Origin: Candidatus Limivicinus sp.
Lineage (GTDB): Bacteria; Bacillota; Clostridia; Oscillospirales; Oscillospiraceae
DNA: 33,897 nt
Assembly (NCBI GenBank): GCA_029264685.1
Contig: JARHZW010000021.1
Span: 1-33,897 of the forward strand
Reading direction: 5' to 3'
The position numbers and the translations under genes were made by a program. The notes below the pieces were generated by a model that saw nothing but the letters and a program-made list of their open reading frames with translations, did not search any database and was not told the DNA's origin. Of the stretch, positions 11,853 to 32,927 are shown one piece after another (positions within the stretch are counted from its first letter, which is position 1; each line of letters starts with the position of its first letter).

Positions 11853-11945
11853 TATGCAGCCGTTATATAGCGGTAATGTGCGAAAAGGCAAAACCGGAAT
11901 TTTGAACAAAAGCCGGATTTTGGCGTTTTCATTCGGAAATGAGGC

Positions 11946-11974
11946 TTTAAAACTTCCGAACTATGTGGTAGAAT
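11946..11974 (+). promoter_or_regulatory. Candidate promoter of the RpiR-type regulator
   Basis: TTTAAA (11946-11951), a 17-base spacer and TAGAAT (11969-11974) precede the regulator start by about 40 bases. Confidence 0.45.
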
Positions 11975-12016
11975 GTGAGGAAATAAAGGCATATCAGTTG
12001 TGGAAGGAGCTCTTTC

Positions 12017-12784: not shown

Positions 12785-12805
12785 AACGGGAAAAAATTAT
12801 CAGAG

Positions 12806-12850
12806 GCAGTGTGCTATACTTCTAAATGAGGTATACTGCACTGCTTTTTG
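12806..12850 (+). terminator. Hairpin terminator or attenuator before phnD, with an extended -10 inside
   Basis: GCAGTG (12806-12811) pairs with CACTGC (12839-12844), the inner arms TATAC and GTATA also pair, and TTTTT follows. The stem contains TGCTATACT (12812-12820), an extended -10 promoter element that could start phnD transcription near 12827. The imperfect dyad itself could be an operator for the RpiR protein. Confidence 0.5.
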
Positions 12851-12907
12851 TATTTTGATGCAGCAATACCTGTGTTTGAGAGACATAAAAATTTAGGAGG
12901 AAACCAA

Positions 12908-14002: not shown

Positions 14003-14007
14003 GCCCT

Positions 14008-14077
14008 CTTCAAAAGCAACTTTTGAAGGAGAGGACCAACCCGGACTCAAACCGGAGGAGAGTCCTCTCCCTCTTTT
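14008..14077 (+). terminator. Two tandem hairpins between phnD and phnC (attenuator)
   Basis: Hairpin 1 is CTTCAAAAG (14008-14016) with CTTTTGAAG (14020-14028). Hairpin 2 is GGAGAGGAC (14028-14036) with GTCCTCTCC (14062-14070), followed by CTCTTTTTA. They share a base, so they compete slightly. The second is a likely partial terminator that lets more phnD than transporter be made. Confidence 0.65.
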
Positions 14078-14101
14078 TATATTATAAGCGAGGTGTAGCT
14101 C

Positions 14102-14860
14102 ATGATCCTATTCGACCATGTTTCAAAAGTTTATCCAAACGGTACAGTGGGACTGGATGATGTAAATTTAAAAATTGACGACGGAGAGTTTGTGGCAATC
14201 ATCGGTCTCTCCGGAGCAGGTAAATCCACCCTTCTGCGCTCCGTAAACCGTATGCACGAAATTACCGACGGTACTCTTACGGTAAACGGTACAAATGTAA
14301 GTCAGCTTCAGGGCAAGTCTCTGAGAAAATTCCGCCGTGGCATAGGAATGGTGTTTCAGTCTTTCAATCTGGTTTCCCGTACTACTGTTATAAAAAATGT
14401 TCTGTCTGCAAGAGTTCCGGAACTGCCTCTGTGGAGAGCAATTCTGGGTGTGTTCAGCAAGCAGGACAAAATTACAGCCCTTGAGGCTCTTGACAATGTG
14501 GGTATTCTTGACAAGGCCTATATGCGTGCCGACCAGCTTTCGGGCGGTCAGCAGCAGCGTGTGGCTCTTGCAAGAACTCTGGCTCAGAATCCTAAAATTA
14601 TTCTTGCCGATGAACCTGTTGCCGCTCTTGACCCTGTTACTGCAAAGCAGGTAATGGAGGACTTCGTGCGTATAAATAAGGACATGGGAATATCCATCCT
14701 GTTAAATATTCACCATGTTGAGCTGGCGCTGAAGTATGCCCAGCGCATTATAGGCATCAGAGCCGGAAAAATCGTTTACGACGGACCTTCTGATAAGGTG
14801 GATAAGTCCGTGCTTGACTCCATTTACGGGGAGAATGCTGCCCGGGAGGAAATGGAATGA
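14102..14860 (+). CDS. phnC: ABC importer ATPase, PhnC type
   Basis: A 252-residue nucleotide-binding subunit with all functional motifs: Walker A GLSGAGKS (35-42), Q-loop Gln86, signature LSGGQQQR (146-153), Walker B IILADEP (166-172) and H-loop His204. The overall pattern (NPKIILADEPVAALDP, ILLNIHHVELALKYA) is PhnC-like. A GAGGTG site lies about 7 bases before the ATG. The stop overlaps the next start as ATGA (14857-14860), so it is translationally coupled to the permease. It powers import of the ligand captured by the upstream lipoprotein. Confidence 0.93.
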   Translation: MILFDHVSKVYPNGTVGLDDVNLKIDDGEFVAIIGLSGAGKSTLLRSVNRMHEITDGTLTVNGTNVSQLQGKSLRKFRRGIGMVFQSFNLVSRTTVIKNVLSARVPELPLWRAILGVFSKQDKITALEALDNVGILDKAYMRADQLSGGQQQRVALARTLAQNPKIILADEPVAALDPVTAKQVMEDFVRINKDMGISILLNIHHVELALKYAQRIIGIRAGKIVYDGPSDKVDKSVLDSIYGENAAREEME

Positions 14861-15678
14861 AGCTCTATGACCGAATTTTCAAGCCGAAAAAGTATGAGCT
14901 GTCCAACGGCAAAGCTGTGGAGGAGCGCTTCACCAGATTGCCGCTGATACTGCTGCTGCTTATTGTGTGCACAGTTATTTCCGTGCACATTACCGGCTTT
15001 AACTTTGAGGTTTTAGGCAGAAACGGCAGTAAGTTTTTTGATATACTTAAGGCCATGTTTCCGCCGAAAACCTCATATATGCCTAAAATATGGCAGCCTT
15101 TGTGGGATACCATAAAGATGTCCGTTCTCGGTTCATTTATAGGTGCGGTTCTGGCTATTCCGGCGGCTATTCTTGCCTCCAGCAATATAATCAGCTCCAA
15201 GGCTGTTCTTGCTATCCAGAGACTTTTTCTGAGCCTTGTGAGGACCCTGCCTACTCTTGTATGCGCACTTATTGCAACTTATATCTTCGGCCTTGGTACC
15301 ATGGCAGGTACCTTTGCCATTGCCGTTTTTACCTTTGCCTACATAGGAAAACAGCTTTTTGAGGTTATAGAAACTGTGGATATGGGTCCCTTTGAGGCTA
15401 TGGAGGCTCTTGGCGCCACTAAAATGCAGGCATTCAGAAGTGCGGTTTTCCCACAGGTCCTGCCTACCTACCTGTCTGTGTCCCTTTTCTGCCTTGAGGG
15501 TAATGTCCGCTACGCTTCAATTCTGGGATATGTGGGCGCCGGCGGTCTGGGTCTTATTATGAATGAGAAAATCGGCTGGCGTGAATACGACAGCGTCGGT
15601 ATGATTTTGATAGTGCTCTTTATAACTGTTATAGCTATAGAGGGTATAAGCCATGTTATAAGAAAGCATTTGAGCTGA
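14857..15678 (+). CDS. phnE: ABC importer permease, PhnE type (first copy)
   Basis: A 273-residue inner membrane subunit with about six membrane segments. The first follows a charged N-terminus (residues about 1-26), and the EAA loop that contacts the ATPase is EALGATKMQAFRSAVFPQ. The stretch RTLPTLVCALIATYIFGLG and the ending with IGWREYDSVGMIL are typical of PhnE. It overlaps phnC by 4 bases and is followed 13 bases later by a second permease gene, so the transporter is probably a PhnE heterodimer. Confidence 0.92.
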   Translation: MKLYDRIFKPKKYELSNGKAVEERFTRLPLILLLLIVCTVISVHITGFNFEVLGRNGSKFFDILKAMFPPKTSYMPKIWQPLWDTIKMSVLGSFIGAVLAIPAAILASSNIISSKAVLAIQRLFLSLVRTLPTLVCALIATYIFGLGTMAGTFAIAVFTFAYIGKQLFEVIETVDMGPFEAMEALGATKMQAFRSAVFPQVLPTYLSVSLFCLEGNVRYASILGYVGAGGLGLIMNEKIGWREYDSVGMILIVLFITVIAIEGISHVIRKHLS

Positions 15679-15691
15679 AAGGAGGCTGAAC

Positions 15692-16504
15692 ATGAACAAT
15701 TCAATTAAGGAAGCTTATGAGAAAGCTCCGAAAACATGGATACTTCAGCTTCTGGTGGCATTTGTGATTGCCTGCCTGCTTGCGTGGTCAAGCTCAGCTG
15801 TTGAAATGTCAAATACCAACGGAAAAGGTCTTCAGGTGGCAAAAAATATCATTTCAGGTATTTTTCATCCGGATACAAAGCTTCTGTTTGCAGCCGGAAA
15901 AAGCGGTGTTGCCTATCTGCTGCTTGAAACTCTGTGTATTGCCTTTCTGGGTACTGTGGTAGGTGCGGTAATTTCCGTTCCGCTGTCATTCCTCTCTGCT
16001 TCAAACCTTATGCCAAAACCCATAGCCATAATCGGCAGATTCTGCATTGCGGCTATCCGTACCATTCCTGCCTTTATCTACGGTCTTATGTTTATAAGAG
16101 TCACAGGACCCGGACCTTTTGCAGGCCTGCTTACAATGAGCCTGTGCTCGATAGGTATGGTTTCAAAAATGTTTATAGAGAGCATTGAAAATCTGGATAA
16201 GCGCATACTTGAATCTCTGGATGCTGCAGGCTGCACCACTTTCCAGAAAATACGCTATGGTATCCTTCCTCAGCTGTTTGCGGACTTTATGTCCACCCTT
16301 ATATACCGTTTTGATATGAACCTGCGTGACGCTACGGTTCTGGGTCTTGTGGGAGCAGGCGGTATCGGCGCTCCTCTTATCTTTGCAATGAGCTCTTACC
16401 GCTGGAACGAAGTGGGAGCAATACTTCTGGGCCTTATTATCCTCGTTCTTATAGTGGAGACTATTTCCTCAAAGATACGCACAAAGCTGATACGGGGAGA
16501 GTAA
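15692..16504 (+). CDS. phnE: ABC importer permease, PhnE type (second copy)
   Basis: A 270-residue permease with a similar layout to the preceding gene: a first membrane helix at about 19-36, EAA loop ESLDAAGCTTFQKIRYGILPQ, and the C-terminal VGAGGIGAPLIFAMSSYRW. An AAAGGAGG site lies 7 bases before the ATG. Two different PhnE subunits per operon are common in Firmicutes. Its stop is one base from the start of the phosphatase gene, so the phosphatase is surely part of this operon. Confidence 0.92.
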   Translation: MNNSIKEAYEKAPKTWILQLLVAFVIACLLAWSSSAVEMSNTNGKGLQVAKNIISGIFHPDTKLLFAAGKSGVAYLLLETLCIAFLGTVVGAVISVPLSFLSASNLMPKPIAIIGRFCIAAIRTIPAFIYGLMFIRVTGPGPFAGLLTMSLCSIGMVSKMFIESIENLDKRILESLDAAGCTTFQKIRYGILPQLFADFMSTLIYRFDMNLRDATVLGLVGAGGIGAPLIFAMSSYRWNEVGAILLGLIILVLIVETISSKIRTKLIRGE

Positions 16505-18168: not shown

Positions 18169-19845
18169 TTAGAAGAGACCCGTAATTTTTCCGTTCCCGT
18201 CTATATCGATCTTTTCTGCGGCAGGGTATTTAGGAAGCCCTGGCATGGTCATAATATCTCCCGCAAGGGCAACAATAAAGCCTGCACCGGAAGAAAGACG
18301 AAGTTTTTTGATATTTACGGTAAAATTCTCAGGGGCACCGAGTTTTGAAGGGTCATCGGAAAAGCTGTACTGAGTTTTTGCAATGCAAATGGGCAGATCC
18401 CCGTAGCCCATACGGGTAAAGTCCTCAGCCTGATTTTTTGCTTCCTGAGACAAAACAACATCCTCGCCGCCGTAAACCTTGCGGACAATGGAGCGAATTT
18501 TGTCTTCTATAGATAAATCCAGAGGGTAGCTATAGCTGAAAGAAGAATTATCCTCCTGACAAAGTCTGAGAACTTCTTCTGCAAGAGCAGTGCCTCCTTT
18601 TCCGCCCTCTGCCCATACCTGAGCGGGAATAACATTTACACCAAGTTCCTTGCAGCTTTCCTGAAGGGCGTGGATTTCTTTCTCCGTGTCTGTGGGAAAG
18701 CGGTTTATTGCAACTGTGCATGGCAGCTTATATACATTTTGGATGTTGGAAACGTGGCGGAGAAGATTTGGAATACCACGCCTGAGTGCCTCCACATCCT
18801 CACACCGGAGCTGATCCTTAGACAAGCCCCCGTGCATTTTAAGAGCCTTTATTGTGGCCACCACCACAACGGCGGAGGGCTTGATGCCCGCTGTACGGCA
18901 CTTTATATCAAGGAACTTTTCAGCCCCGAGATCTGCGCCGAAGCCTGCCTCGGTGACAACATAGTCCGCAGATTTAAGAGCCATTCTGGTTGCCAGCACG
19001 GAGTTGCAGCCGTGGGCAATATTGGCAAAGGGGCCTCCGTGAATAAACACAGGAGTTCCCTCCAGCGTCTGTACCAGATTGGGTTTTAGTGCGTCCTTTA
19101 AAAGCACTGTCATTGCGCCCTGCGCATTGAGATCCCCGCAGCTTACGGGCTTTCCTTCGTAGCTGTAACCCACAACTATTCGGGAAAGCCTTTCCTTCAA
19201 GTCGGAAAGACTTTGCGAGAGGCAGAGAATAGCCATGATTTCGCTTGCAACCGTAATGTCGAAGCCGTCTTCACGGGGAACACCGTTGGCTTTCCCGCCC
19301 ATGCCGTCAATGATGAAGCGGAGCTGTCTGTCGTTCATATCCATGCAGCGTTTCCATGTGATTCTGCGAGGGTCTATATTCAGGGCATTTCCCTGCTGAA
19401 TATGGTTGTCAACCATGGCTGCAAGCAGGTTGTTTGCCGCACCTATTGCGTGAATATCTCCTGTAAAGTGCAGGTTAATATCCTCCATGGGGAGCACCTG
19501 AGCGTAGCCTCCTCCGCAGGCACCGCCCTTTACCCCGAAAACAGGACCGAGCGAGGGCTCACGGAGTGCAGCAACGGCATCCCTGCCTATAGCCCGCAGA
19601 GCGTCGGCAAGACCTATGGAAGTTGTGGTCTTGCCCTCACCTGCGGGAGTTGGCGTTATAGCGGTTACAAGAATAAGCTTTCCGTCGGGGCGCACAGTAT
19701 CGTCAAGATACTTGAGGTCAACTTTAGCTTTATATTTGCCGTAGTTTTCAAGATATTTGTTATCAATATGAGCCTTTCGGGCTATTTCGTCTATGGGGCA
19801 CATGGGGGTGCTCTGAGCAATTTCAATATCAGTTAAGAAAGCCAC
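18169..19845 (-). CDS. fhs: Formate--tetrahydrofolate ligase
   Basis: It makes 10-formyl-THF from formate, THF and ATP. The 558 residues match the usual family length. The ATP loop [12 protein letters not shown] lies at 64-75, followed by conserved stretches such as [20 protein letters not shown] and [20 protein letters not shown] sequence (here [17 protein letters not shown]). The start is GTG at 19845, with GGGAGA about 8 bases upstream. It is the last gene of the purine operon, 23 bases after purL. Its product is the formyl donor for PurN and the AICAR transformylase in the same operon, which explains the linkage. It is probably under the ZTP riboswitch through the shared transcript. Confidence 0.97.
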
Positions 19846-19868: not shown

Positions 19869-22800
19869 TCAGCGGAAATACTTTACCGCCGAACTGAACA
19901 TTTTAATATCATAATCGCCGGGGACATTTTTGTAAAGACCTGAACCGATTCTTTCTGCATGACCCATCTTTCCGAAAACTCTGCCGTCAGGGGAGCATAT
20001 ACCTTCCACGGCGCAGAGGGAACCGTTGGGGTTAAAGTGAACATCCATGGTAGGCTCTCCGTTAAGATCCACATACTGAGTGGTGATCTGCCCGTTTTCG
20101 CTCAGGGTCTTTATAAGCTCAGGAGAGGCAAGGAAACGGCCCTCGCCGTGTGAAATGGGAACATTGAAAATATCGCCGGGCTGAGTATCCGCAAGCCATG
20201 GGGATTTATTGGAGGCAACCCTGACACGGACTATCCGTGACTGATGGCGGGAAATGGTATTAAAGCTGAGTGTGGGGCAGCTTTCGTCGGTGTCTATTAT
20301 CTTGCCGTAAGGCACAAGACCCAGCTTTATGAGGGCCTGAAAACCGTTGCAAATGCCGCACATCAGACCGTCACGGCGGTCAAGAAGCTCCTCTACGGCC
20401 TCTTTTACAGCGGCACTGCGGAAAAATGCGGTTATGAATTTACCTGAACCCTCAGGCTCATCACCGCCGGAGAAACCGCCGGGAATGAAGACCATCTGTG
20501 AGTGCGACAGGGATTTTGAGAAGCTCTCAATGCTTTTCTCAATATCAGAGGAGCTAAGATTGTTAATAACCATTATTTCCGTGTCTGCGCCTGCATCTTC
20601 CATGGCTCTTGCGCTGTCATATTCGCAGTTTGTGCCGGGGAAAACGGGAATCAGCACTTTAGGACGGGCACATTTTACAGCAGGGGCGGAGTGGTCAGCA
20701 TACAAACGGGTGATTTTAGGGACTTGTCCTGCTTCGGTGGGAATATTGCAGGTATAAACGCTCTCAAGCTTTCCCTCGTATATATCCAGAAGCTGAGACA
20801 GGGAAACCGCCTCACCGCCAAGGCGGATTTCGCACTTATCGGTAACGCGGCCCAGCAGTCGTCCTTCTTCACATTCCGGCTTAACTTCCAGAACAAAGGA
20901 GCCGTAATTATAGCCGAACAGCTCCTCGAGACTGAGAGTGTCTGAAAGCTCCACACCAAGGAAGTTGCCGAAAGCCATTTTCATAACTGCCTCGGCAATA
21001 CCGCCGTAGCCGGGAGTATAGGCGCTTACAGCCATTCCGGTGGTAATAAGCTCGTGCACTAGTTCAAAGACTTTTATGAGAGACTGTGTTTCGGGAAGAC
21101 CATTATTGTCTCGTTCAGGCTCAATGAGAATGAGCTTATTTCCGACTGCTTTTAGTTCATTGGGTGTAATATTTTTTATTTTATCCGTTGTTACTGCAAA
21201 GGAAACCAGAGTGGGCGGTACATCCATGCTTTCAAAAGAACCGCTCATGGAATCCTTGCCGCCTATTGCGCCGATTTGAAGCTCCATCTGAGCCTTAAAC
21301 GCACCGAGAAGTGCGGCAAGGGGCTTGCCCCAGCGATCAGGGTCTTTGCCCAGCTTTTCAAAGTACTCCTGAAATGTCAGGTACACATCCTTAAATTCGG
21401 CGCCCGTTGCAATTAGTTTGGAAACGGACTCGATTACAGCAAGATATGCGCCGTGGTAGGGACTTTTTTCGCTTATATAGGGGTTGTATCCCCAGGCCAT
21501 GAGAGAGCAGTCTTCGGTATGGCTTTTTTCCATTGAAATCTTCTGAACCATGGCCTGAATAGGGGTAAGCTGATTTTTTCCGCCGAAAGGCATTAAAACA
21601 GTGCCGGCGCCTATTGTGGAGTCAAACCGCTCTGAAAGGCCTCTCTTGGAGCAAACATTAAGGTCAGAGGCCATTGCCGTGATGCCCTGAGTAAAGGATA
21701 GGGGGACGGCCTTTTCAAATGTGCCTGCTTTTTCCACATGGGCTTGAATGTGCTTTTCCGCACCGTTGGAATCCAAAAATTCACGGCTTATATTTACTAT
21801 CTTTTCGCCGTTCCAGTTCATTACGAGCCGTGGCGCTTCCGTAACCTCTGCTATAACTGTGGCCTCAAGATTTTCCCCGTGGGCAAGAGCCTTGAAGCTT
21901 TCGGCATCCTTTGCGTCCACCACAACTGCCATGCGCTCCTGAGATTCGGAAATGGCAAGCTCAGTGCCGTCCAGACCCTCGTATTTTTTTGTTACGGAGT
22001 TAAGGTTTATGTTCAGGCCGTCTGCAAGCTCTCCTACTGCCACGGATACACCGCCTGCACCGAAATCGTTGCAGCGCTTTATCATTCGGCAGGCTTCGGG
22101 ATTACGGAAAAGCCTTTGAAGCTTGCGCTCTTCGGGTGCGTTGCCTTTCTGAACCTCTGCTCCGCAGTTTTCCAGAGAGTCAAGGGTGTGGGATTTGGAG
22201 GAGCCTGTTGCACCGCCGCAGCCGTCACGACCTGTGCGTCCGCCAAGAAGTATAACAAAGTCTCCCGCCTGAGGACGCTCACGCCTTACGTTTGCCTCGG
22301 GAGCGGCCGCAATAACAGCGCCTATCTCCATGCGTTTTGCGGCGTAGCCGGGATGATAAAGCTCATCGACTATTCCGGTGGCAAGACCGATCTGGTTTCC
22401 GTAGGAGGAATAACCGGCGGCAGCAGTGGTGACGATTTTTCTCTGGGGCAGCTTGCCGGGCAGAGTTTCGCTGAGGGGCTTTAAGGGATCGGCAGCACCT
22501 GTAAGGCGCATTGCGCCGTAAACATAGGCTCTTCCGGATAGGGGGTCTCTGATTGCACCGCCTATGCAGGTGGCAGCACCTCCGAAGGGTTCTATCTCTG
22601 TGGGGTGATTGTGAGTTTCGTTTTTAAACAGCAGCAGCCACGGGGTGGGAACGCCGTCTTCTTCTACACTTATTTTAACCGTGCAGGCGTTTATTTCCTC
22701 TGATTCGTCAAGCTTTTGGAGCATTCCGTTTTTTCGGAGGTGCTTCACGGCTATTGTGGCAAGGTCCATAAGGCTTACGGGCTTTTTACGGTCCAGTGCC

Positions 22801-23558
22801 TCTCTTGTTTCAAGATAGGAATTAAAGCTCTGCTGAATTTCCTCGTCCTCAAAGCTTACCTTGTCAATACTGGTGTTAAAGGTGGTATGACGGCAGTGGT
22901 CAGACCAGTATGTGTCTATGACTTTTATTTCGGTGATGCTGGGGTCACGCTGCTCTTCTCTGAAATACTCCTGACAAAAGGCAAGGTCATCTATATCCAT
23001 GGCAAGCCCTTTGAGTTCAGCGAAGGCAGCAAGCTCATCTCTGCTCATGGCGTTGAAGCCGTGGAGAATTTCCACTTTTTCACCTGCCGTGTAATCGGCT
23101 TTGAGAGTACGGGGCTTTTCCATTGCTGCTTCACGGGTTTCCACCGGATTTATCAGGTATTTCTTGATTTCGCCGATTTCTTCGGCACTCAGATTGCCGT
23201 AGAGCTTATAAATCTTTGCTGTTTTGACTTCGGGCTTGTTTCCACGGAAAATTATCTGCATACACTGTGCGGCGGAATCAGCTCTCTGGTCAAACTGACC
23301 GGGTAGATATTCAACGCCGAAAACTTCTGCTCCGTCATCTTCAAGGCAGAAGCTGACATTGTCAAGCTGAGGCTCAGACAGCACGGTTTTAACGGCATAA
23401 GCAAATTCATCTTCGCTTATGTTTTCAACATCGTAGCGGTTTATAAGGCGCAGATCTGTTAGAGAATCAATGCACAGCAGGCTTTTTATGTCCTCTTTAA
23501 GGTTAAGAGCTTCATGTGCAAGCTCCTTTTTCTTTTCAACAAATACACGATAAACCAT
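19869..23558 (-). CDS. purL: Phosphoribosylformylglycinamidine synthase, single-chain
   Basis: It converts FGAR, glutamine and ATP to FGAM. The 1229 residues form the fused large type: N-terminal and linker regions, two AIR-synthase-like halves (for example DTYWSDHCRHTTF, FKNETHNHPTEIEPFGGAATC, GAIGGKDSMSGSF), and a class I glutaminase from about 966. The glutaminase is complete, with Cys1070 in CGICNGFQ and His1137/Glu1139 in SHGEGRF. The start at 23558 has GGGAGG 6 bases upstream; a longer frame to 23624 only overlaps purD. One base separates it from the purD stop. The intact glutaminase here contrasts with the damaged one in PurF. Confidence 0.97.
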   Translation of the reverse strand: MVYRVFVEKKKELAHEALNLKEDIKSLLCIDSLTDLRLINRYDVENISEDEFAYAVKTVLSEPQLDNVSFCLEDDGAEVFGVEYLPGQFDQRADSAAQCMQIIFRGNKPEVKTAKIYKLYGNLSAEEIGEIKKYLINPVETREAAMEKPRTLKADYTAGEKVEILHGFNAMSRDELAAFAELKGLAMDIDDLAFCQEYFREEQRDPSITEIKVIDTYWSDHCRHTTFNTSIDKVSFEDEEIQQSFNSYLETREALDRKKPVSLMDLATIAVKHLRKNGMLQKLDESEEINACTVKISVEEDGVPTPWLLLFKNETHNHPTEIEPFGGAATCIGGAIRDPLSGRAYVYGAMRLTGAADPLKPLSETLPGKLPQRKIVTTAAAGYSSYGNQIGLATGIVDELYHPGYAAKRMEIGAVIAAAPEANVRRERPQAGDFVILLGGRTGRDGCGGATGSSKSHTLDSLENCGAEVQKGNAPEERKLQRLFRNPEACRMIKRCNDFGAGGVSVAVGELADGLNINLNSVTKKYEGLDGTELAISESQERMAVVVDAKDAESFKALAHGENLEATVIAEVTEAPRLVMNWNGEKIVNISREFLDSNGAEKHIQAHVEKAGTFEKAVPLSFTQGITAMASDLNVCSKRGLSERFDSTIGAGTVLMPFGGKNQLTPIQAMVQKISMEKSHTEDCSLMAWGYNPYISEKSPYHGAYLAVIESVSKLIATGAEFKDVYLTFQEYFEKLGKDPDRWGKPLAALLGAFKAQMELQIGAIGGKDSMSGSFESMDVPPTLVSFAVTTDKIKNITPNELKAVGNKLILIEPERDNNGLPETQSLIKVFELVHELITTGMAVSAYTPGYGGIAEAVMKMAFGNFLGVELSDTLSLEELFGYNYGSFVLEVKPECEEGRLLGRVTDKCEIRLGGEAVSLSQLLDIYEGKLESVYTCNIPTEAGQVPKITRLYADHSAPAVKCARPKVLIPVFPGTNCEYDSARAMEDAGADTEIMVINNLSSSDIEKSIESFSKSLSHSQMVFIPGGFSGGDEPEGSGKFITAFFRSAAVKEAVEELLDRRDGLMCGICNGFQALIKLGLVPYGKIIDTDESCPTLSFNTISRHQSRIVRVRVASNKSPWLADTQPGDIFNVPISHGEGRFLASPELIKTLSENGQITTQYVDLNGEPTMDVHFNPNGSLCAVEGICSPDGRVFGKMGHAERIGSGLYKNVPGDYDIKMFSSAVKYFR

Positions 23559-23559
23559 G

Positions 23560-24834
23560 TTATGCCTCCCTATATGCTTTAAGCGCCTTTTGACCGATAT
23601 CGTGGCGGTAATAGGCGTTTTCAAAATGTACCTTATCTTTCAGAGAATAGGCGGCTTTTATTGCAATGGGAAGAGTGGGTTTTACGGCTGTAATCCCCAG
23701 AACTCTGCCGCCGCTTGTCAAAAGCCTGCCATCGGGACTGAGCCTTGTGCCGGCAGAATAAACATAGGGCTTTGCCTCATCCTCTATGGTAATTTCAAAG
23801 CCCTTTTCATATTCAACGGGATAACCCTTAGAGGCCATTATGAGACAGCAGGCACAGTCGCTGCTGAATTTTACTTCTGTTTCTTCAAGTGTACCGTTTG
23901 TGCAGGCCTGCATCACCGTGAGCAGGTCGCTTTCAAGAAGGGGAAGCACAACCTGAGCCTCAGGGTCACCGAAACGGCAGTTATACTCTATGACCTTGGG
24001 TCCGTTTTCAGTAAGCATAAGGCCAAAATAAAGGCAGCCCTTAAAGGTCCGTCCCTCTGCGGTCATGGCATGGATGGTGGGAAGAAAAATTTTCTCCATA
24101 CACTCTTTTGCCACGGCTTCCGTGTAGTACGGGTTTGGAGCAACAGTACCCATGCCGCCGGTATTAAGCCCCTGATCATTATCCATTGCACGCTTGTGAT
24201 CCATGGAGGAAACCATGGGTTTAACGGTTTTTCCGTCGGTAAATGCCAGAACAGAGACCTCAGGACCTTCCAGAAATTCTTCTACAACCACACGGCTGCC
24301 GCTTTTGCCGAATTTGCCGTGGGCCATCATGGATATAAGCGCCTCTCTTGCCTCTTCACGGGTCTGAGCAATAATTACGCCTTTTCCAAGGGCAAGCCCG
24401 TCGGCCTTTATAACGGTGGGAAGGGGAGCTGTTTCTATATATTTCAGTGCCTCATCCAAACCCTCAAAGCTGCGGTACTGAGCGGTGGGAATGGAGTATT
24501 TCCTCATTAAATCCTTTGAAAAAACCTTGCTTCCCTCGATTACGGCAGCTGCCTTTGAGGGGCCGAAGCAGGGGAGACCTGCATCGGTAAGCAAATCCAC
24601 TGCCCCCATAACCAGAGGATCGTCAGGAGCTACGACGGCGTAGTCCACCTTGTTTTCCAGAGCAAAGGCTTTTATCGCCTCAAGATCGGTTGCCGCTATG
24701 GGAACGCAAACCGCATCATCAGCCATACCGCCGTTTCCCGGTAGGGCGTAGATTTTCTCCACGCTGCTGTTTTCACGGAGCTTTTTAATTATAGCGTGCT
24801 CACGCCCGCCGCCGCCTACTACAAGAATCTTCAT
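23560..24834 (-). CDS. purD: Phosphoribosylamine--glycine ligase
   Basis: It joins phosphoribosylamine and glycine with ATP to give GAR. At 424 residues it has the normal length. It is an ATP-grasp enzyme: VVGGGGREHAI at the N-terminus, PDDPLVMGAVD, the grasp core with KADGLALGKGV, and the metal site EYNCRFGDPEAQ. AGGAGG lies 6 bases before the ATG. It sits between the AICAR transformylase and purL. Its substrate comes from PurF, so it would depend on whatever supplies ammonia to that variant. Confidence 0.97.
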   Translation of the reverse strand: MKILVVGGGGREHAIIKKLRENSSVEKIYALPGNGGMADDAVCVPIAATDLEAIKAFALENKVDYAVVAPDDPLVMGAVDLLTDAGLPCFGPSKAAAVIEGSKVFSKDLMRKYSIPTAQYRSFEGLDEALKYIETAPLPTVIKADGLALGKGVIIAQTREEAREALISMMAHGKFGKSGSRVVVEEFLEGPEVSVLAFTDGKTVKPMVSSMDHKRAMDNDQGLNTGGMGTVAPNPYYTEAVAKECMEKIFLPTIHAMTAEGRTFKGCLYFGLMLTENGPKVIEYNCRFGDPEAQVVLPLLESDLLTVMQACTNGTLEETEVKFSSDCACCLIMASKGYPVEYEKGFEITIEDEAKPYVYSAGTRLSPDGRLLTSGGRVLGITAVKPTLPIAIKAAYSLKDKVHFENAYYRHDIGQKALKAYREA

Positions 24835-24848
24835 TAAGCGCCTCCTTA

Positions 24849-26024
24849 TCAGTGATGGAAAAGGCGCATACCGGTAAAGGCCATTACCATGTCATAGCTG
24901 TCGGCGGTCTCTATTACGTTGTCGTCTCTGATGCTGCCGCCGGGCTCGGCAATATATTTTACGCCGCTTTTATACGCTCTCTTAACATTGTCACCGAAGG
25001 GGAAGAAAGCGTCGCTTCCGCAGGTAAGACCGGACTGAGTGGCTATCCATGCCTTCTTTTCCTCTGGGGTGAGGATCTGAGGCTTCTCGGCAAAGGTGTT
25101 TTCCCATTCACCGTCTGCCAGAAGGTCCATATACTCGTCGGAAATGTAAATGTCTATGGCGTTGTCTCTGTCGGGGCGGCGTATGTCATTTTTGAACTTC
25201 AGTCCCAAAACCTTGGGGTGCTGGCGGAGCAGCCAGTTGTCAGCCTTGTTGCCGGCAAGTCTGGTGCAGTGGATACGGCTCTGCTGACCTGCACCCACGC
25301 CCACAGTCTGTCCGTTTTTAACATAGCATACGGAGTTTGACTGGGTGTATTTTAAAGTGATAAGAGAAACTATCATATCTATAACGGCAGCCTCAGGCAG
25401 CTCTTTGTTTTTGGTTACTATGTTCTCAAACAGCTGCGGAGTGATTTTAAAATTGTTGTGCCCCTGCTCAAAGGTAATGCCGAAAACATCCTTGCGCTCA
25501 AGCTCTGCGGGAACATAATCAGGGTCGATTTTAACTACGTTGTAGTTTCCGCCCTTTTTGGTTTTCAGGATTTCCAGTGCTTCCTCGGTGTAATCAGGGG
25601 CGATGATACCGTCGGAGACTTCATATTTTAAATAGAGAGCGGTGGCTCTGTCACAGGTACGGCTGAGAGCTGCCCAGTCACCGTAGGATGAGAGCCTGTC
25701 GGCACCTCTTGCCTTAATGTATGCACAGGCAATGGGCGAGAGGGGAGCATCGTCGTCTACAAAGTATATTTTTCGGTCAATTTGGCTGAGAGGCTGCCCT
25801 ACGGCGGCACCGGCGGGAGAAACGTGCTTGAATGAAGCGGCGGAGGGGAGACCGGTGGCCTCGTCCAGTTCCTTTACAAGCTGCCATGAGTTTAATGCGT
25901 CCAGAAGGTTTATATATCCGGGCTTGCCGTTTAGAACTTCTATCGGAAGCTCTCCCTGCTGCATAAATATACGGGAAGGCTTCTGATTGGGGTTGCAGCC
26001 ATATTTAAGTTCAAGCTCTTTCAT
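24849..26024 (-). CDS. purH: Stand-alone AICAR transformylase (PurH C-terminal domain only)
   Basis: It transfers a formyl group from 10-formyl-THF to AICAR, giving FAICAR. The 391 residues correspond only to the AICARFT part of PurH: YGCNPNQKPSRIF at 8-20, the catalytic pair Lys66-His67 in FKHVSPAG, and the ending with GGSIRDDNVIETADSY. The N-terminal IMP cyclohydrolase (MGS-like) domain of normal bifunctional PurH is absent. The ring closure is supplied by the separate cyclohydrolase gene 9 bases upstream. Length and clean ends argue against truncation: this is a real split-pathway form. Confidence 0.93.
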   Translation of the reverse strand: MKELELKYGCNPNQKPSRIFMQQGELPIEVLNGKPGYINLLDALNSWQLVKELDEATGLPSAASFKHVSPAGAAVGQPLSQIDRKIYFVDDDAPLSPIACAYIKARGADRLSSYGDWAALSRTCDRATALYLKYEVSDGIIAPDYTEEALEILKTKKGGNYNVVKIDPDYVPAELERKDVFGITFEQGHNNFKITPQLFENIVTKNKELPEAAVIDMIVSLITLKYTQSNSVCYVKNGQTVGVGAGQQSRIHCTRLAGNKADNWLLRQHPKVLGLKFKNDIRRPDRDNAIDIYISDEYMDLLADGEWENTFAEKPQILTPEEKKAWIATQSGLTCGSDAFFPFGDNVKRAYKSGVKYIAEPGGSIRDDNVIETADSYDMVMAFTGMRLFHH

Positions 26025-26033
26025 GTTGATTCC

Positions 26034-26753
26034 TCACTTGTTTTTATTTATGAGGCGGTGCTCATATTCACCGGTAGCTATATCTGTGTATCGCACATAA
26101 AGGGAAATTTTATTGTCATTATCAAGAGCATTCCAAAGAGAAGCGGTGAATTCATCTATATTGTCAGGGATGAAAACACGCTCAGGCTCTCCCTGAAAGG
26201 TGGGGATGGGGTTGCCGTCGGTAACGTAAGTGTGGATAAAATGCCCAAGACCTGCAAGAGCGGGATACTCAAATCCGTAGCGGCAGCAGGCAGAGCCTTT
26301 TGCATCCGCACTTTTTAAAATGCTCATTGAATAAGTAAAATCATTTTCGGAAAATTCTATAAGTCCGCTTATTCTGGGGGTAAGGTTGGGATAGTCCGGT
26401 TCAAACTGCCTTTTTCGCAGGGCGGAGAAAAAGTCCAGCCCCTCTTTAAAGCCCTCGTAAACAGTGTCTGTCTGGTCTCCGTTTGTCACTATCAGCTTGT
26501 TTTCAAAGCTTCTGATTGCGGGGTAGATTATAAGGCTGGGATCTTCAACCTTTGAGTAGTCATAAGGTTCGGTAAAGAGGGCGTTGTCTTTAAAGGAAAA
26601 AACACGGTTGCGGCTGTTACTGCTGCGTCCCATTATAAAATAGGCAGCGACTGCGCTTTTCCCGTCAGCGCTTTTTCCTATCACTATGCCACGGCCTACA
26701 TACGGGTTGCCGGAGATAAGCTCGTCAATATGGCTTACATTATATATATCCAT
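26034..26753 (-). CDS. purO: Archaeal-type IMP cyclohydrolase
   Basis: It closes the ring of FAICAR to form IMP, the last step of the pathway. The 239 residues match the IMP cyclohydrolase family first known as PurO of archaea, unrelated to the PurH N-terminal domain. Recognisable stretches are NPYVGRGIVIG near the N-terminus, the MGRSSNSRNRVF motif, and YEGFKEGLDFFSALRKRQFE with PDYPNLTPRI. Its stop is 9 bases from the AICAR transformylase start, and its own start overlaps the purN stop (TGATG). Together the two proteins replace bifunctional PurH. Confidence 0.9.
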   Translation of the reverse strand: MDIYNVSHIDELISGNPYVGRGIVIGKSADGKSAVAAYFIMGRSSNSRNRVFSFKDNALFTEPYDYSKVEDPSLIIYPAIRSFENKLIVTNGDQTDTVYEGFKEGLDFFSALRKRQFEPDYPNLTPRISGLIEFSENDFTYSMSILKSADAKGSACCRYGFEYPALAGLGHFIHTYVTDGNPIPTFQGEPERVFIPDNIDEFTASLWNALDNDNKISLYVRYTDIATGEYEHRLINKNK

Positions 26754-27370
26754 CAGTTTTTCTCCCTTGCATTGATTATTTCGGCGGAAATCTGTTCAGC
26801 GGCTCTGGGAAGAATGACCCATTCCGCCTGTTCCATAACTCTCTTCTGGAGAGCTTCCGGCGTGTCATGGGGCAGAATATCAACTGCTTTCTGCATTATT
26901 ATTCTGCCGCCGTCAGGCACCTCGTTTACAAAGTGTACCGTTGCGCCTGTTACCTTTACTCCGTACTCAAGGGCGGCCTCGTGGACCTTCAGGCCGTAAA
27001 AACCCTTTCCGCAGAAGGACGGAATAAGGGATGGGTGAATGTTTATTATTCTGTTTTTGTAGTGATTTACAAAGTCGGCACTTAAAATGCTCATAAAGCC
27101 CGCAAGCACAATAAGCTCAATGCCGTTTTCTGCGAGAAGCTCCAGAAGGGCTTTTTCAAAGCCCTCCTGTTTTCCGTATTCTTTTTTAGTTATGCAGGCA
27201 GAGGGAATTCCTGCAATTTCTGCCCGTTTTAAGGCGTAGGCATTAGAATTATTGGAAACGACAAGTCGTATTTCGCCGCTTTTTATAATGCCGCTTTTTT
27301 CGGCGTCCATAAGCGCCTGAAGATTGGTTCCGCCGCCGGACACAAGGACGGCTATCCTTGCTTTCAGCAT
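26753..27370 (-). CDS. purN: Phosphoribosylglycinamide formyltransferase
   Basis: It converts GAR to FGAR using 10-formyl-THF. The 205 residues show the folate-dependent transformylase core: SGGGTNLQA at the N-terminus, the catalytic Asn and His in NIHPSL, and the catalytic Asp in [11 protein letters not shown]. The loop SFCGKGFYG is the clostridial version of the usual PGLH loop. The start overlaps the purM end by 7 bases (27364-27370), so it is coupled. It draws on the same one-carbon pool that Fhs, FchA and FolD feed. Confidence 0.96.
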
Positions 27371-28404
27371 ATCGTCACCTTTTCGCTGCTCTCTTCGATA
27401 TGGCCGAGAACATAGGCGTCGATACTCTGAGCTTTAAGAACAGCGAGAGCTTTATCAACGTCCTCCGGAGCCACGGTAACACTCATGCCAACGCCCATAT
27501 TGAAGGTGTTGAACATATCACGCTCAGGAATATTGCCCCTCTTTGCGATAAGATCGAATATGGGCAGTACCCTAACGTCCCTGCGCTCTATTACGGCACC
27601 AAGACCGTCTGGAATACTGCGTGGAATGTTTTCATAAAAGCCGCCGCCTGTTATGTGGGACACACCCTTGACTTTGACTTCCTTGAAGAGAGCCAGCATG
27701 GGCTTTACATATATTTTTGTGGGAGTCAGCAGCGTTTCCCCAATGCTCCGGCCGGAAAGCTCGGCTACTGGACTTTTGATGTCCTGATTATCTACATCAA
27801 ATACCTTTCTCACCAGAGAAAAGCCGTTAGAATGAACACCGGTGGAGGGAAGAGCGATGAGAACGTCTCCCTTGCGGGTGGCTGAATTGTCGATAATATC
27901 TTTTTTATCTACTATTCCCACGGCAAAGCCGGCAAGGTCGTACTCGTTTTCGGGATAAAAACCGGGCATTTCGGCGGTTTCTCCGCCTATGAGTGCGGCA
28001 CCGCTCTGAACGCAGCCCTCGGCAACACCGGAAACTATCTGCTCTATGCGCTGCGGAACATTTTTTCCGCAGGCGATATAATCAAGAAAGAACAGAGGCT
28101 TTGCACCGCAGCATATAATGTCGTTTACGCACATGGCAGTGCAGTCTATGCCCACGGTGTCGTGCTTATCCATTAAAAAGGCAAGCTTCAGCTTGGTGCC
28201 CACACCGTCGGTGCCGCTTACAAGAACGGGACATTCCATGCCCGCAAGATCCGGCAGAAAAAGACCGCCGAAGCCTCCTACATCAGAGTATACACCGGCT
28301 GTCATGGTGCGCTGAATGTGGCTCTTCATAAGCTCCACGGCTTTGTACCCCGCAGTAATGTCAACTCCGGCGGCAGCATATGAATCGGAACGACTGCTAT
28401 TCAT
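27364..28404 (-). CDS. purM: Phosphoribosylformylglycinamidine cyclo-ligase
   Basis: It closes FGAM to AIR with ATP. It has 346 residues, the normal length, with [38 protein letters not shown] and [13 protein letters not shown]. The start at 28404 is chosen because GGGAGAG lies 8 bases upstream; the longer frame to 28458 overlaps purF and lacks such a site. It follows purF by 23 bases and overlaps purN. Confidence 0.97.
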
Positions 28405-28427: not shown

Positions 28428-29849
28428 TCAGTCTTTGCCTGTCCAGCAATAGGTGCATATTTTGTCCCTGTCAATCCCTATGGCATCCAGAAGGGCATCC
28501 AGAGACTGATAACCCAGAGAGCTGAAGCCCATTTTTTCGCAAATGCTTTTCAGCATACACTGACCTCTTCTGGTGCTGCCGTCGGCGTATTCATCCAGAT
28601 GGTTCTGGCCTTCTGCACCTTCAAGCTCCTGAATGGTCCTGCGTGTGAGCAGCTCCATACCGGAATTGGTTCTGGAGAAGTTCAAAAACTTGCATCCGTA
28701 CATGACAGGCGGACAGGCGGAACGCATATGAACTTCCTTTGCACCGGAGTCATAGAGAAATTCTATGGTCTCCTGCAGCTGGGTTCCCCTGACTATGGAA
28801 TCATCCACAAAAAGCAGCTTTTTCCCTTCAATCAGCTCCGGCACAGGAATCTGCTTCATTTTGGCAACCTGCTTTCTCACATCCTGACTTGCGGGAGTGA
28901 AGGAGCGGGGCCATGTGGGGGTATATTTAATAAAGGGTCTTGCCAGAGGCAGGTGGCAGGCATTGGCGTAGCCCATGGCGTGAGGAATACCGGAATCCGG
29001 AACTCCCGCCACATAATCAACCTCCGGCAGAGTGCCGTTATCAATCTCGCTCTTTGCAAGCGCAGAACCGTTTTTGTATCTGGACAGCTCTACATTCTGA
29101 CCCTCGTATCTGGAGTTGGGGTAGCCGTAATAGGTCCATAGGAAAGCGCAGATACGCATTTTGTCTCCGGCAGGCTGCAAGGTTTCCCAGCCCTTCTCGC
29201 TGATTTTTACGATTTCACCGGGGCCAAGCTCGTGTTCGTCTTTGTAGCCCAGTTTTCTGTATGCGAAGGACTCAAAGGATACACAGTAGCCCTCCTCGTC
29301 CCGTCCTATAAGAACCGGCAGCCTACCCAGCTTGTCTCTTGCAGCTATTATATCCTCTCCGGTAAGAATCAAAATGGTGGCAGAGCCGCTGATTATATTC
29401 TGAGCGTAGCGTATGCCCTCAACAAGACTGTCCTTCTGATTTATAAGAGCGGCTACAAGCTCAGTTGAATTTATCTGTCCTGAACTCATGGCCATGAACT
29501 GATGACCCTGGTCAAAGAAATATTCATTTATCAGCTCATCGGCGTTATTTATGCAGCCGACAATGCTGATTGCGTAAAAACCCAGATGAGAGCGTACCAG
29601 AAGGGGCTGAGGGTCAAGGTCGGATATACAGCCTATGCCGCTGCATCCGTGAAAGGAAGCTATATCATTTTCAAACTTAGTGCGGAACGGAGTGTTTTCT
29701 ATGTTATGTATCTGCTTCTGGTAGCCGTCTTTTCTGTCGTGAACGACCATTCCGGCTCTTTTTGTACCAAGATGGGAGTGATAATCCACCCCGAAAAACA
29801 GATCCAGCACTATGTCGCGCCGTGATACAGCGCCGAAGAAGCCGCCCAT
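28428..29849 (-). CDS. purF: PurF-like amidophosphoribosyltransferase without the glutaminase nucleophile
   Basis: In normal PurF an N-terminal glutaminase feeds ammonia to PRPP to make phosphoribosylamine. This 473-residue copy keeps the transferase half: PRPP loop [12 protein letters not shown] (345-356), VAGVPDSG, and four cysteines placed like the Fe-S ligands of B. subtilis PurF (Cys234, Cys386 or 379, Cys465, Cys468). The glutaminase site is not intact. The protein begins MGGFFG instead of MCGIFG, so the Cys nucleophile is Gly. The usual HRG is HLG (26-28), and the oxyanion motif HNGN is replaced by IVGC (96-99). No other start supplies a Cys, because the ATG overlaps the purC stop (TAATG). 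It may use free ammonia or a partner glutaminase. I recall similar copies in other Clostridia. Confidence 0.88.
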
Positions 29850-30526
29850 TATTCAAAGAACAGGCGGGAGAGAGTCATAGGCTCCACATATTCTCCGTCT
29901 TTATATACTCTCATGTTGCCGGAGGCGATTTCGTCAATGAGAATTACTTCGTCACCGGAGTAACCAAACTCAAATTTAATGTCATAAAGCTCCATGCCGC
30001 GCTTTTCCATTTCGCTTTCGATAATGTCTGTGATTTCCTGAGTCTGAGCTTTAAGGGACTCGTACTGCTCACTTGTCATAACGCCAAGATCAACAAGAGC
30101 GTCTTTTGTTACCAGAGGGTCACCCTTTGCATCGTCTTTGAAGGTGGTCTCAACATAGTTGGGCAGGGGAGCGCCGGACTCAATGTAAGCGCCGTAGCGG
30201 CGGATGAAGCTGCCCACTGCTCTGCGGCGGCAGATGACTTCAAGACCCAGACCAAAGGGACGGGCAGGCAGCACTTCCATGGTGCAGTCGTCCATGTTAA
30301 TGCCTATGTAGTGGGTCTTTATTCCCTTGTCTCTCAAAAGCTCAAAGAAATACTTTGACATACGGAGGTTCTCTCTGCCTACACCCTCGATCTGAAGGCC
30401 GACAGAATTCTCACCCGGGTCAAACTTGCCGTCTTTGCCGGTAACGTCGTCTTTAAACTTTAACAGGTAGTTGCCGTTTTCCAGTGCGTAGACATTTTTG
30501 GTTTTTCCAGTGTATTTGAGTTCCAT
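29849..30526 (-). CDS. purC: SAICAR synthase
   Basis: It joins CAIR and aspartate with ATP to give SAICAR. The 225 residues are close to the usual bacterial length. It shows the start [11 protein letters not shown], the nucleotide region [33 protein letters not shown] and the metal-binding [23 protein letters not shown] lies 8 bases before the ATG. It sits between purE and purF; the stop overlaps the purF start. SAICAR would next need PurB, which is not in the window. Confidence 0.97.
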
Positions 30527-30567: not shown

Positions 30568-31053
30568 TTATTTAGTATTGAGAGCTTTGTCCTTGCGAAG
30601 AGTTTCCTCAGTTCCGCTGAGACGGAAGGCCTCCAGCTTTGCGGCAAGCTCGCTGTCTTCCAGAGAAAGTATCTCTAAAGCAAGAATGGCGGCATTTTTA
30701 GCCCCGTCTATTGCCACTGTTGCAACCGGAATTCCGGAAGGCATCTGTACTGTGGAAAGAAGGGCGTCCATGCCGCCAAGCTGTTCAGATTTAATGGGGA
30801 TACCTATAACAGGCAGTGTTGTACCGGCAGCGATAGCACCGGCAAGATGTGCCGCCATACCTGCGGCCGCAATTATCACCCCAAAGCCGTTCTGCCTTGC
30901 ATTAAGGCTGAATTCTCGGGCCTCATTGGGGGTGCGGTGTGCGGAGTAAACGTGCATTTCGTACTCGACACCGAAACTATCCAGTACATCCGCCGCTTTG
31001 CGGACTACCGGCAGGTCGCTGTCACTACCCATGATAATAGCTACTTTTTTCAT
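30568..31053 (-). CDS. purE: AIR carboxylase / N5-CAIR mutase
   Basis: The first gene of the purine operon has 161 residues from the ATG at 31053, where AGGAGG lies 7 bases upstream; an in-frame extension to 31149 runs through the riboswitch terminator and is rejected. Motifs are [32 protein letters not shown] and [22 protein letters not shown] and MAAHL resemble the class I mutase that uses N5-CAIR from PurK, but no purK is present in this operon. PurK must be elsewhere, or this enzyme carboxylates AIR directly. Expression is controlled by the ZTP riboswitch just upstream. Confidence 0.96.
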
Positions 31054-31090: not shown

Positions 31091-31205
31091 AAAACAAAAA
31101 AAGCGCACTCCACACCTAAAGGTATTGAGTACGCCCAGACGGTCGGCAATTCAGGTAAAATGGTCCATGTGGTGCTCCACTCAAAACCGTCAGAGCCAAA
31201 ATACC
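31091..31205 (-). promoter_or_regulatory. ZTP (pfl) riboswitch with overlapping terminator
   Basis: Read on the minus strand, the 5' domain has CTCTGACGG, then hairpin GTGG-AGCA-CCAC and ATGGACC. The 3' domain has the signature GCCGACCGTCTGGGC (31147-31133). GACG (31191-31188) can pair with CGTC (31141-31138), which is the family pseudoknot with a G-C to A-T covariation. The terminator stem GCGTACTC (31134-31127) with GAGTGCGC (31110-31103), extended by ATACC/GGTGT and followed by T7, overlaps the end of the 3' signature. Ligand binding should therefore prevent termination. ZTP accumulates when 10-formyl-THF is short and AICAR builds up, so this switch turns on the purine genes and fhs. Confidence 0.88.
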
Positions 31206-31226
31206 GTTAATTATCTTTACGAGCCT

Positions 31227-31380: not shown

Positions 31381-31431
31381 GCGGTTTAGATGCAAAAATC
31401 ATACTCAGCGGGAGAGAACAGGAGCAACAGC

Positions 31432-32058
31432 ATGGAAAATAAACTGATTTCGGACAGCTGCGAGAGGTTTACCTCTCGTCTTTCATCGTCGGATGCAGTG
31501 CCCGGCGGAGGCGGAGCGGCAGCGCTTGCCGGCGCTCTCGGCGCATCCCTGTGTGCCATGGCGGCAAACCTGACTGCGGGAAAAAAGAAATATGCAGAGC
31601 ATGAGGAAAAAATACAGAGGGTTATAAGAGAGGCGGATGCACTCAGACTTTCTTTTTTGGAGCTGGTGGATCTTGACGCTCAGGCTTTTTTACCTCTTTC
31701 AAAAGCCTACGGTATAGATAAGAACGACCCTGAGAGGGGAGAAACCATAAGGAGAGCTTCTCTCGAGGCCTGTGTTCCCGCAGGGAAAATGCTTGAGCTT
31801 TGCGGAAAAACCACGGAGCTTTTACAGCAGATGTTCAGCATAGGAAACCCTATGCTTATCTCTGATGTGGGCTGCGGGGCAGAGCTTTGCCTTGCGGCCA
31901 TGAACTGTGCGGCCATGAACGTATATGTTAATACGAGAGACCTGAAAGGTGACGAAGAAGCGGAAAAACTCAATATGACAGTGAAAAACTGCCTTGAAAA
32001 GTACGCTCCGGCGGCAGAAAAGCTTGTTCGGGAAGTTATGAAGAAACTGGAGGGCTAA
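31432..32058 (+). CDS. fchA: Cyclodeaminase/cyclohydrolase family protein (FchA-like)
   Basis: A 208-residue protein of the formiminotransferase-cyclodeaminase C-terminal family. In acetogenic clostridia, FchA of this family is the methenyl-THF cyclohydrolase. Visible hallmarks are SDAVPGGGGAAALAGALGASL near the N-terminus, MAANLT, and the C-terminal NVYVNTRDL. The start at 31432 has AGGAG 8 bases upstream; the longer frame back to 31390 begins inside the leader. Its stop overlaps the folD start (TAATG), so the two proteins are made together. The cyclohydrolase role, rather than cyclodeaminase, is inferred from the partner FolD having lost its own cyclohydrolase residues. A formiminoglutamate route is less likely, because no histidine degradation gene is near. 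Confidence 0.88.
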   Translation: MENKLISDSCERFTSRLSSSDAVPGGGGAAALAGALGASLCAMAANLTAGKKKYAEHEEKIQRVIREADALRLSFLELVDLDAQAFLPLSKAYGIDKNDPERGETIRRASLEACVPAGKMLELCGKTTELLQQMFSIGNPMLISDVGCGAELCLAAMNCAAMNVYVNTRDLKGDEEAEKLNMTVKNCLEKYAPAAEKLVREVMKKLEG

Positions 32059-32927
32059 TGGGAGAGATACTTTACGGAAAACCTGTGGCGGCAGCCATAT
32101 GGAATGAAGTGGGTGCCGGCGTTGAAAGCCTTGGAAAGAGGGGCATACAGCCCTGCCTGAGCATTATACGCATGGGACAGGACCAGAGCGCCGAAAGCTA
32201 TGAAAACTCTATTGTGAGCCGCTTTCAAAAAGTCGGCATAGCCGTAAAATGCAGCGCAGTTTCTCAAAACGCAGATGAGGAAGCGCTTACGGAAATTATA
32301 CAAAAGGTAAATCTTGACGAAAGCGTGCATGGCTGCATGATATTGAGACCGCTGAGTCAGCACATAGATGAATTCAGGGTTCTGGAGAAACTGGAGCCTG
32401 CAAAGGATGTGGACTGTGCAGGCCGTATGTCTTTAGGCGGCGTGTTCAGCGGCAGCGGAGATTACTTCTGCCCCTGCACGGCGGAAGCCTGCATGAATAT
32501 GCTTGATTATTACAATGTGCCGCTTAGGGGTGCAAGAGTTGCCGTTATAGGCAGAAGCCTTGTAGTGGGCAGACCGCTTGCCATGATGCTCCAGCAGAGG
32601 GATGCAACGGTTACAATGTGCCATTCCAAAACACCAGATGCTGCCAAAATCTGCCGTGAGCAGGATATAGTTATATCTGCCGCCGGAAAGCTGAGACTGG
32701 TGGATGAGAGCTATACAAACTGCCGTCAGATAGTTCTGGATGTGGGCATAGACTCGGATAAGGACGGCAATATTTGCGGTGATGTGGATTTTGAAAGGGT
32801 TCGGGATGCCGTTGCGGCAATCAGCCCTGTTCCGAGAGGTGTGGGCTCGGTTACTACAGCCGTTCTGGCTCGTCATGTAGTTGCAGCTGCACAAAAAAGC
32901 ATGAAGAAAACCGAGGAGAATTCCTGA
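32058..32927 (+). CDS. folD: Methylene-THF dehydrogenase FolD variant lacking cyclohydrolase residues
   Basis: It has 289 residues with FolD architecture: catalytic domain (about 1-150), Rossmann domain with GRSLVVGRP (165-173), CHSKT, and the C-terminal PRGVGSVTTAVL. Tyr48 is kept, but the lysine expected in YxxxK is Ile52 (SYENSIVSRFQKVGI). The usual VQLPLP is ILRPLS, so the expected Gln is Leu96. Asp119 in KDVD is kept. In the bifunctional human enzyme, the matching Lys56 and Gln100 are needed for the cyclohydrolase step. This copy probably oxidises 5,10-methylene-THF to methenyl-THF only, and the overlapping FchA gene supplies the hydrolysis. Similar sequences occur in other Clostridia, as far as I recall. 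Confidence 0.9.
   Translation: MGEILYGKPVAAAIWNEVGAGVESLGKRGIQPCLSIIRMGQDQSAESYENSIVSRFQKVGIAVKCSAVSQNADEEALTEIIQKVNLDESVHGCMILRPLSQHIDEFRVLEKLEPAKDVDCAGRMSLGGVFSGSGDYFCPCTAEACMNMLDYYNVPLRGARVAVIGRSLVVGRPLAMMLQQRDATVTMCHSKTPDAAKICREQDIVISAAGKLRLVDESYTNCRQIVLDVGIDSDKDGNICGDVDFERVRDAVAAISPVPRGVGSVTTAVLARHVVAAAQKSMKKTEENS

Follow-up and report, generated by a model that had tools for sequence, protein, structure and literature searches.

How the first step of purine synthesis proceeds when its enzyme has lost the site that draws nitrogen from glutamine is the question raised by a gene in a 33,897-nucleotide stretch of Candidatus Limivicinus sp. DNA (contig JARHZW010000021.1 of assembly GCA_029264685.1; hereafter the window), which belongs to a genome that is 97.27% complete in 121 contigs. 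In the textbook pathway PurF carries out this first, regulated step with glutamine as nitrogen donor. The window encodes a PurF-like protein without a glutaminase site, NC-PurF, and comparison of its relatives suggests that it represents an old family of PurF paralogues that probably forms phosphoribosylamine from phosphoribosyl pyrophosphate (PRPP) and free ammonia and is able to take the place of PurF. An earlier reading made from the letters alone (the sequence-only reading) had put the gene at positions 28428-29849; the position stands, with the correction that the reading frame is that of the minus strand, the plus-strand translation of the same coordinates holding stops. The gene and the motifs that define it are as follows.

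28428..29849, minus strand: NC-PurF, PurF-like protein without glutaminase site, 473 amino acids (translation; TIGR01134, 176.4 bits; AlphaFold model)
29844..29846, minus strand: codon of residue 2, Gly replacing the nucleophile Cys1 (alignment)
29766..29774, minus strand: HLG (residues 26-28) replacing HRG (alignment)
29553..29564, minus strand: IVGC (residues 96-99) replacing the oxyanion HNGN (alignment)
28782..28808, minus strand: PRPP loop VDDSIVRGT (residues 348-356), kept (alignment)
28446..28457, minus strand: C-terminal CTYC of iron-sulfur (Fe-S) type (Cys465, Cys468), kept (alignment)

The N-terminus of NC-PurF reads MGGFFG. Its ATG shares one base with the purC stop (TAATG, the last A of TAA being the first base of ATG), which bears out the proposed translational coupling, and an in-frame TGA lies two codons upstream, so that a longer, cysteine-bearing N-terminus is impossible; a hidden upstream start of the kind found for some archaeal PurF (PMC3261824) is thereby ruled out. 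The protein scores 176.4 bits against TIGR01134 and so falls below the curated PurF cut-off of 350, and of the Pfam families GATase_7 lies just above its cut-off and Pribosyltran just below. A phmmer search of solved structures with NC-PurF returned eight distinct sequences, all of them PurF, with that of Bacillus subtilis at the top. In this assembly NC-PurF is the only PurF found: searches with NC-PurF itself and with TIGR01134 found no second PurF in the genome, a weak 41-residue match on another contig (E 0.03) excepted.

The extent of the loss is apparent from two alignments. Alignment A comprises 188 family rows: 187 that remained after rows with the same final 300 residues were removed, and the query, so that the window protein stands twice; two of these rows are fragments. 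To them were added 52 canonical rows, fetched with the same loci, and Escherichia coli PurF. Alignment B comprises 132 family rows that include Bacteroides sequences and again the window protein twice. Cys1, Arg26, Arg73, Tyr74, Asn101 and Asp127 are present in 52 of 52 canonical rows of alignment A, a count of distinct rows and not of every canonical gene. Among the 188 family rows, the Cys1 column holds Gly in 174, Ser in 10, a gap in four and Cys in none (Gly 120 and Ser 12 in alignment B), the Arg26 column holds Leu in 186 and a gap in two, and the glutamine loop bearing Arg73/Tyr74 is deleted throughout. The Asn101 column reads Val (155), Ile (29), Thr (2) or a gap (2), with the adjacent Gly102 kept in 184, and among the commonest residues at Asp127 are Ser (92), Ala (46), Pro (18), Gln (10) and Thr (8); Asp occurs there in three of the 132 rows of alignment B. 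In the window protein, the changes listed by the sequence-only reading are all found, residue 2 being Gly at the position of E. coli Cys1, HRG being HLG and HNGN being IVGC, and alignment to E. coli PurF extends that list to the deleted Arg73/Tyr74 loop and to Asp127, which is Ser128 here. In published work, Arg73 is linked to the glutamine carboxylate, and Tyr74, together with Ile335, to one wall of the channel for ammonia (PMC7953260). Since the same losses run throughout a deep family, they do not reflect chance or the decay of one gene. Ser stands for Cys1 in a minority, and nine of the ten Ser cases seen by genome lie outside purine operons. An apparent acidic replacement of the channel residue Leu415 was dropped as most likely an off-by-one alignment error (by eye, E399 corresponds to E. 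coli Glu414 and L400 to Leu415, and alignment B sets E399 against a gap), and no equivalence is claimed for Tyr329, where the alignment is ambiguous.

The PRPP-site and Fe-S residues are preserved, as had been noted for the PRPP loop and for the Fe-S-type cysteines (Cys234, Cys386, Cys465 and Cys468 in window numbering). In 187 or all 188 of the family rows these four cysteines are kept, as are the equivalents of E. coli Asp366, Asp367, Ser368, Val370, Arg371, Gly372 and Thr373 and of Lys326, Arg332, Phe334, Arg342, Lys349 and Tyr258. Alignment B agrees on both lost and kept residues, and a 60-row alignment has the PRPP loop and the Fe-S cysteines invariant across family and canonical forms. 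The alignable flexible-loop residues likewise remain in NC-PurF, and a two-domain PurF fold is predicted by an AlphaFold model built with a broader alignment, an earlier model having been weak (74.4). Identity amounts to 29-30% with nine canonical sequences and, by structural alignment, to 22-23% with E. coli PurF. Purifying selection acts on both halves: the ratio of nonsynonymous to synonymous substitution rates (dN/dS) ranges from 0.037 to 0.131 in the glutaminase half (eight measurable of 11 hand-picked pairs) and from 0.017 to 0.28 in the phosphoribosyltransferase (PRT) half (10 measurable of the 11), rough values, since dS is above 1 in several cases. The glutaminase domain, though dead, is not decaying.

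The sequence-only reading had taken the loss for an event in this gene; the loss stands, and it belongs to an old family, matched at 1e-60 by 109 genomes out of 197 from the window's order and found beyond it. In a sample of the phylum (genomes at least 90% complete), 28 of 398, the window genome included, hold a match at 1e-80. At least 8000 relatives score E < 1e-3 (the best 120 were listed), a figure that does not measure the size of the family, since lower-scoring ones can be canonical PurF. Close relatives include records of Oscillospiraceae, Oscillibacter and Flavonifractor, and the family spans the window's order, other Clostridia and Bacteroides. Paludicola sp. MB14-C6 is a further carrier, with the family gene on a contig of 2.94 Mb. 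A plasmid collection yielded four of 32 records at 48-53% identity (Peptoclostridium, Parabacteroides, Phocaeicola and Bacteroides), the other rows shown lying at 26-30%. Where named, the family is usually annotated as amidophosphoribosyltransferase, as in the Bacteroides clusters P0210, P0222 and P0239 with 1000 contigs listed each, and a Parabacteroides record labels the gene a hypothetical protein. A tree of 127 rows, made by a quick method that flagged long branches, the two Bacteroides rows and the canonical ones among them, separates the family from canonical PurF with a support of 100. In a 76-row clade (support 98), 72 rows carry the label of a purine-operon location, and in a 25-row clade (support 99) every row but one is labelled as lying outside such operons.

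Ammonia-dependent synthesis is the simplest function for such a protein, because it relies on none of the lost features and because PurF enzymes have that activity: E. coli PurF mutants at Cys1 lose the use of glutamine and keep that of ammonia (Mei and Zalkin 1989, via PMC3261824), and PRPP amidotransferase accepts ambient NH3 (PMC12017579). In this scheme, PRPP-Mg would bind the phosphoribosyltransferase site and the flexible loop would close; cytosolic NH3, entering at the place of the former glutamine loop or reaching the PRPP site directly, would attack C1 of PRPP with release of pyrophosphate, the product passing to PurD. The dead glutaminase domain would then provide structural support and perhaps an entry path, and cells with both forms would possess a glutamine-fed and an ammonia-fed entry into the pathway. 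The conservation of the PRPP site also bears on the proposal that NC-PurF is a silent or regulatory subunit of PurF fold, with phosphoribosylamine supplied by canonical PurF, which also occurs in 59 of 109 carriers, or arising non-enzymatically from ribose 5-phosphate and ammonia, as documented in Salmonella (PMC3485032). Such formation could serve as a backup, but it would not preserve the PRPP site, nor would a silent subunit need those residues, which are conserved as in canonical PurF, and we regard this proposal as very unlikely.

Whether an ammonia-fed enzyme replaces canonical PurF can be judged from the 197 genomes of the order, where canonical PurF above the TIGR01134 cut-off was found in 137, the family in 109 and purD in 187. 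Both forms occur in 59, the canonical form only in 78, the family only in 50 (48 with purD) and neither in 10 (five with purD); canonical PurF is thus missing above the cut-off from 50 of 109 carriers, the window genome included. Among genomes with purD, it is lacking in 48 of 107 carriers against five of 80 non-carriers (Fisher p 1.3e-9 over 187 genomes, which is no strict probability as the genomes are related). On the best tree (107 rows), at least 22 changes in canonical presence are required, and 13 independent pairs differ in it when only well-supported branches are used; the tree gave no signal of a link between operon context and canonical loss. Contiguous DNA records the same difference. 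G071, G115 and G045 have the order purC-NC-purF-purM and G167, of the same genus group and 99% complete, has purC-NC-purM, while G016 has purC-purF-NC-purM and G049, of the same genus group, purC-NC-purM.

The placement of the family genes is consistent with this role. Of 109 family genes, 80 have two or more pur genes within 7 kilobases on their own strand and are counted as lying with pur genes: 40 in genomes without canonical PurF, 25 with the canonical gene elsewhere and 15 with it directly beside (L195, one of the 80, precedes purE rather than lying inside). Of the 20 best-scoring canonical loci, 13 have canonical purF itself in the place between purC and purM, and four more have it between the family gene and purM. 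The 15 adjoining pairs, together with the intermolecular NH3 transfer between PRPP amidotransferases proposed for yeast (PMC12017579), speak for an enzyme that receives its ammonia from another protein, be it a glutaminase partner or a canonical PurF encoded in tandem, with which it would share a mixed oligomer or condensate. Partner delivery is possible where canonical PurF adjoins, but 50 of the 109 carriers yielded no canonical PurF and no neighbour family is common to more than five of 43 stand-alone and outgroup loci, and as a general explanation we consider it quite unlikely. Of the two sources of ammonia named by the sequence-only reading, no evidence for a partner glutaminase was found at those 43 loci, and use of free ammonia is the best inference.

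Several observations weigh against the ammonia-fed replacement of PurF. The share of carriers with purD that lack the canonical form falls as completeness rises, from 14 of 20 to 20 of 29, five of nine and nine of 49 in the bands of 90-94, 95-97, 98 and 99-100% completeness. The canonical form was also present in 13 of 13 genomes of a named set (12 isolates and, by title, one metagenome-assembled genome (MAG)), all 12 isolates carrying both forms, and the 22 of 50 further named genomes that lack it come from a set consisting, by title, entirely of MAGs, whose completeness is not stated and which cover 50 of 67 remaining loci. It may be, then, that canonical PurF is merely missing from incomplete assemblies and that the family is always accessory. 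We judge this unlikely: purD is rarely missing from the same genomes (2/41, 2/56, 2/20 and 4/80 by band), non-carriers with purD rarely lack the canonical form (2/19, 2/25, 1/9 and 0/27), and the contiguous operon of G167 is without a gene that its genus mates hold there. Given the band figures of carriers and non-carriers, incompleteness cannot explain all canonical losses, and part of the trend may come from incompleteness or from a difference in lineage composition between the bands.

A further group of adverse observations concerns genomic location. Not lying with pur genes are 29 of 109 family genes (10 without and 19 with canonical PurF), some of them uncertain on account of contig ends, and in Bacteroides finegoldii and Parabacteroides distasonis the family gene precedes pepT and gcvT (L216, and L217 at 12001-15904), as it precedes pepT in Peptoclostridium (L215 at 10001-12800). 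These copies may therefore do something else. One such reading has PRPP used with a different nucleophile to yield another ribosyl compound, at least in copies outside purine operons, and could draw on four residues of the PRT half that are invariant in the family only (Arg304, Trp313, Gln357 and Arg403); in purine operons, however, the family gene holds the place of purF and is followed by purD, which needs phosphoribosylamine, and such a product seems highly improbable. GcvT frees ammonia, and a link between this release and the neighbouring family gene is possible. Also adverse to the ammonia-fed reading is PurL, which keeps the glutaminase elbow GxCNG in 30 of 30 full-length copies beside family genes, that of the window included, so that glutamine is presumably available to the same cells.

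Among known systems, NC-PurF resembles glutamine PRPP amidotransferase PurF (EC 2.4.2.14; TIGR01134) in its full-length fold, PRPP loop, basic flexible-loop residues, four Fe-S cysteines of the B. subtilis kind and operon place, and differs from it in the absence of Cys1, Arg26, the Arg73/Tyr74 loop, Asn101 and Asp127. Compared by description, it is also like PurF' of Crenarchaeota, a PurF paralogue without the N-terminal Cys that lies near purine genes and for which an ammonia-dependent activity was proposed, untested there (Brown et al. 2011; PMC3261824). According to that paper, each crenarchaeal genome keeps a PurF with Cys, whereas NC-PurF is often the only PurF found, and PurF' frequently has Ala or Val as residue 1, against Gly or Ser in the NC-PurF family. 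Unlike the laboratory point mutants of E. coli PurF, the family has had its whole glutamine site remodelled by evolution. No paper on this bacterial family was recognised in the open-access literature, subscription journals lying mostly outside the search; what seems to be new is how widely the family occurs, how completely its glutamine site has been remodelled, and that many genomes yielded it as their only PurF. If the ammonia-fed reading is true, the nitrogen donor may be wrongly assigned in metabolic models of numerous gut Clostridia and Bacteroides, and the first purine step should be spared by glutamine analogues; the family is a natural system for testing an amidotransferase without glutaminase and the entry route of ammonia. 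More tentatively, and with the balance tilted against it, a widespread lineage of gut anaerobes may have exchanged the glutamine-fed first step for an enzyme obligately fed by ammonia and may then have lost the normal PurF repeatedly, with purine supply directly gated by ambient ammonia and the dead domain retained by selection as an ammonia entry and sensing part.

As the sequence-only reading supposed, the gene of the window lies within a working-looking purine operon and is probably functional. The minus-strand order is given below; a formate-tetrahydrofolate ligase gene follows purL, and NC-PurF stands between purC and purM.

31126..31207, minus strand: ZMP/ZTP riboswitch, operon leader (Rfam RF01750, 45.8 bits, gathering threshold 39)
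30568..31053, minus strand: purE (likely ATG at 31053 after AGGAGG; mechanical open reading frame (ORF) to 31149)
29849..30526, minus strand: purC (stop overlapping the NC-PurF start by one base)
27364..28404, minus strand: purM (likely ATG at 28404; mechanical ORF to 28458)
26753..27370, minus strand: purN
26034..26753, minus strand: inosine monophosphate (IMP) cyclohydrolase, PurO type (PF07826 above cut-off; NCBIfam PurO models below theirs)
24849..26024, minus strand: stand-alone 5-aminoimidazole-4-carboxamide ribonucleotide (AICAR) formyltransferase (PRK07106)
23560..24834, minus strand: purD, user of phosphoribosylamine
19869..23624, minus strand: large purL, intact glutaminase elbow GICNG

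Across the window and 20 loci searched with Rfam, the ZTP riboswitch of the window, which the mechanical purE ORF overlaps (hence the likely start at 31053), is the only purine-related riboswitch above threshold. The others, NiCo and azaaromatic in L250, lysine in L197 and c-di-GMP-I in L251 and L252, are not tied to the family gene, the c-di-GMP-I riboswitches sitting beyond its 3' end. A 1124-amino-acid ORF at 3848-7222 (minus strand) has no Pfam match at 1e-6. One-carbon genes flank the operon, namely an FTCD_C cyclodeaminase-like gene, folD and the formate-tetrahydrofolate ligase gene (31390-32927, plus strand; 18169-19845, minus strand), and a gene resembling carB (carbamoyl-phosphate synthase large subunit, identified by eye from L247) adjoins the family gene in L202, L247, L248 and L249. 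The PurH reactions are split in the window (24849-26753, minus strand) between the stand-alone AICAR formyltransferase and the IMP cyclohydrolase of PurO type, an archaeal kind, and the same pair stands beside many family genes in the order.
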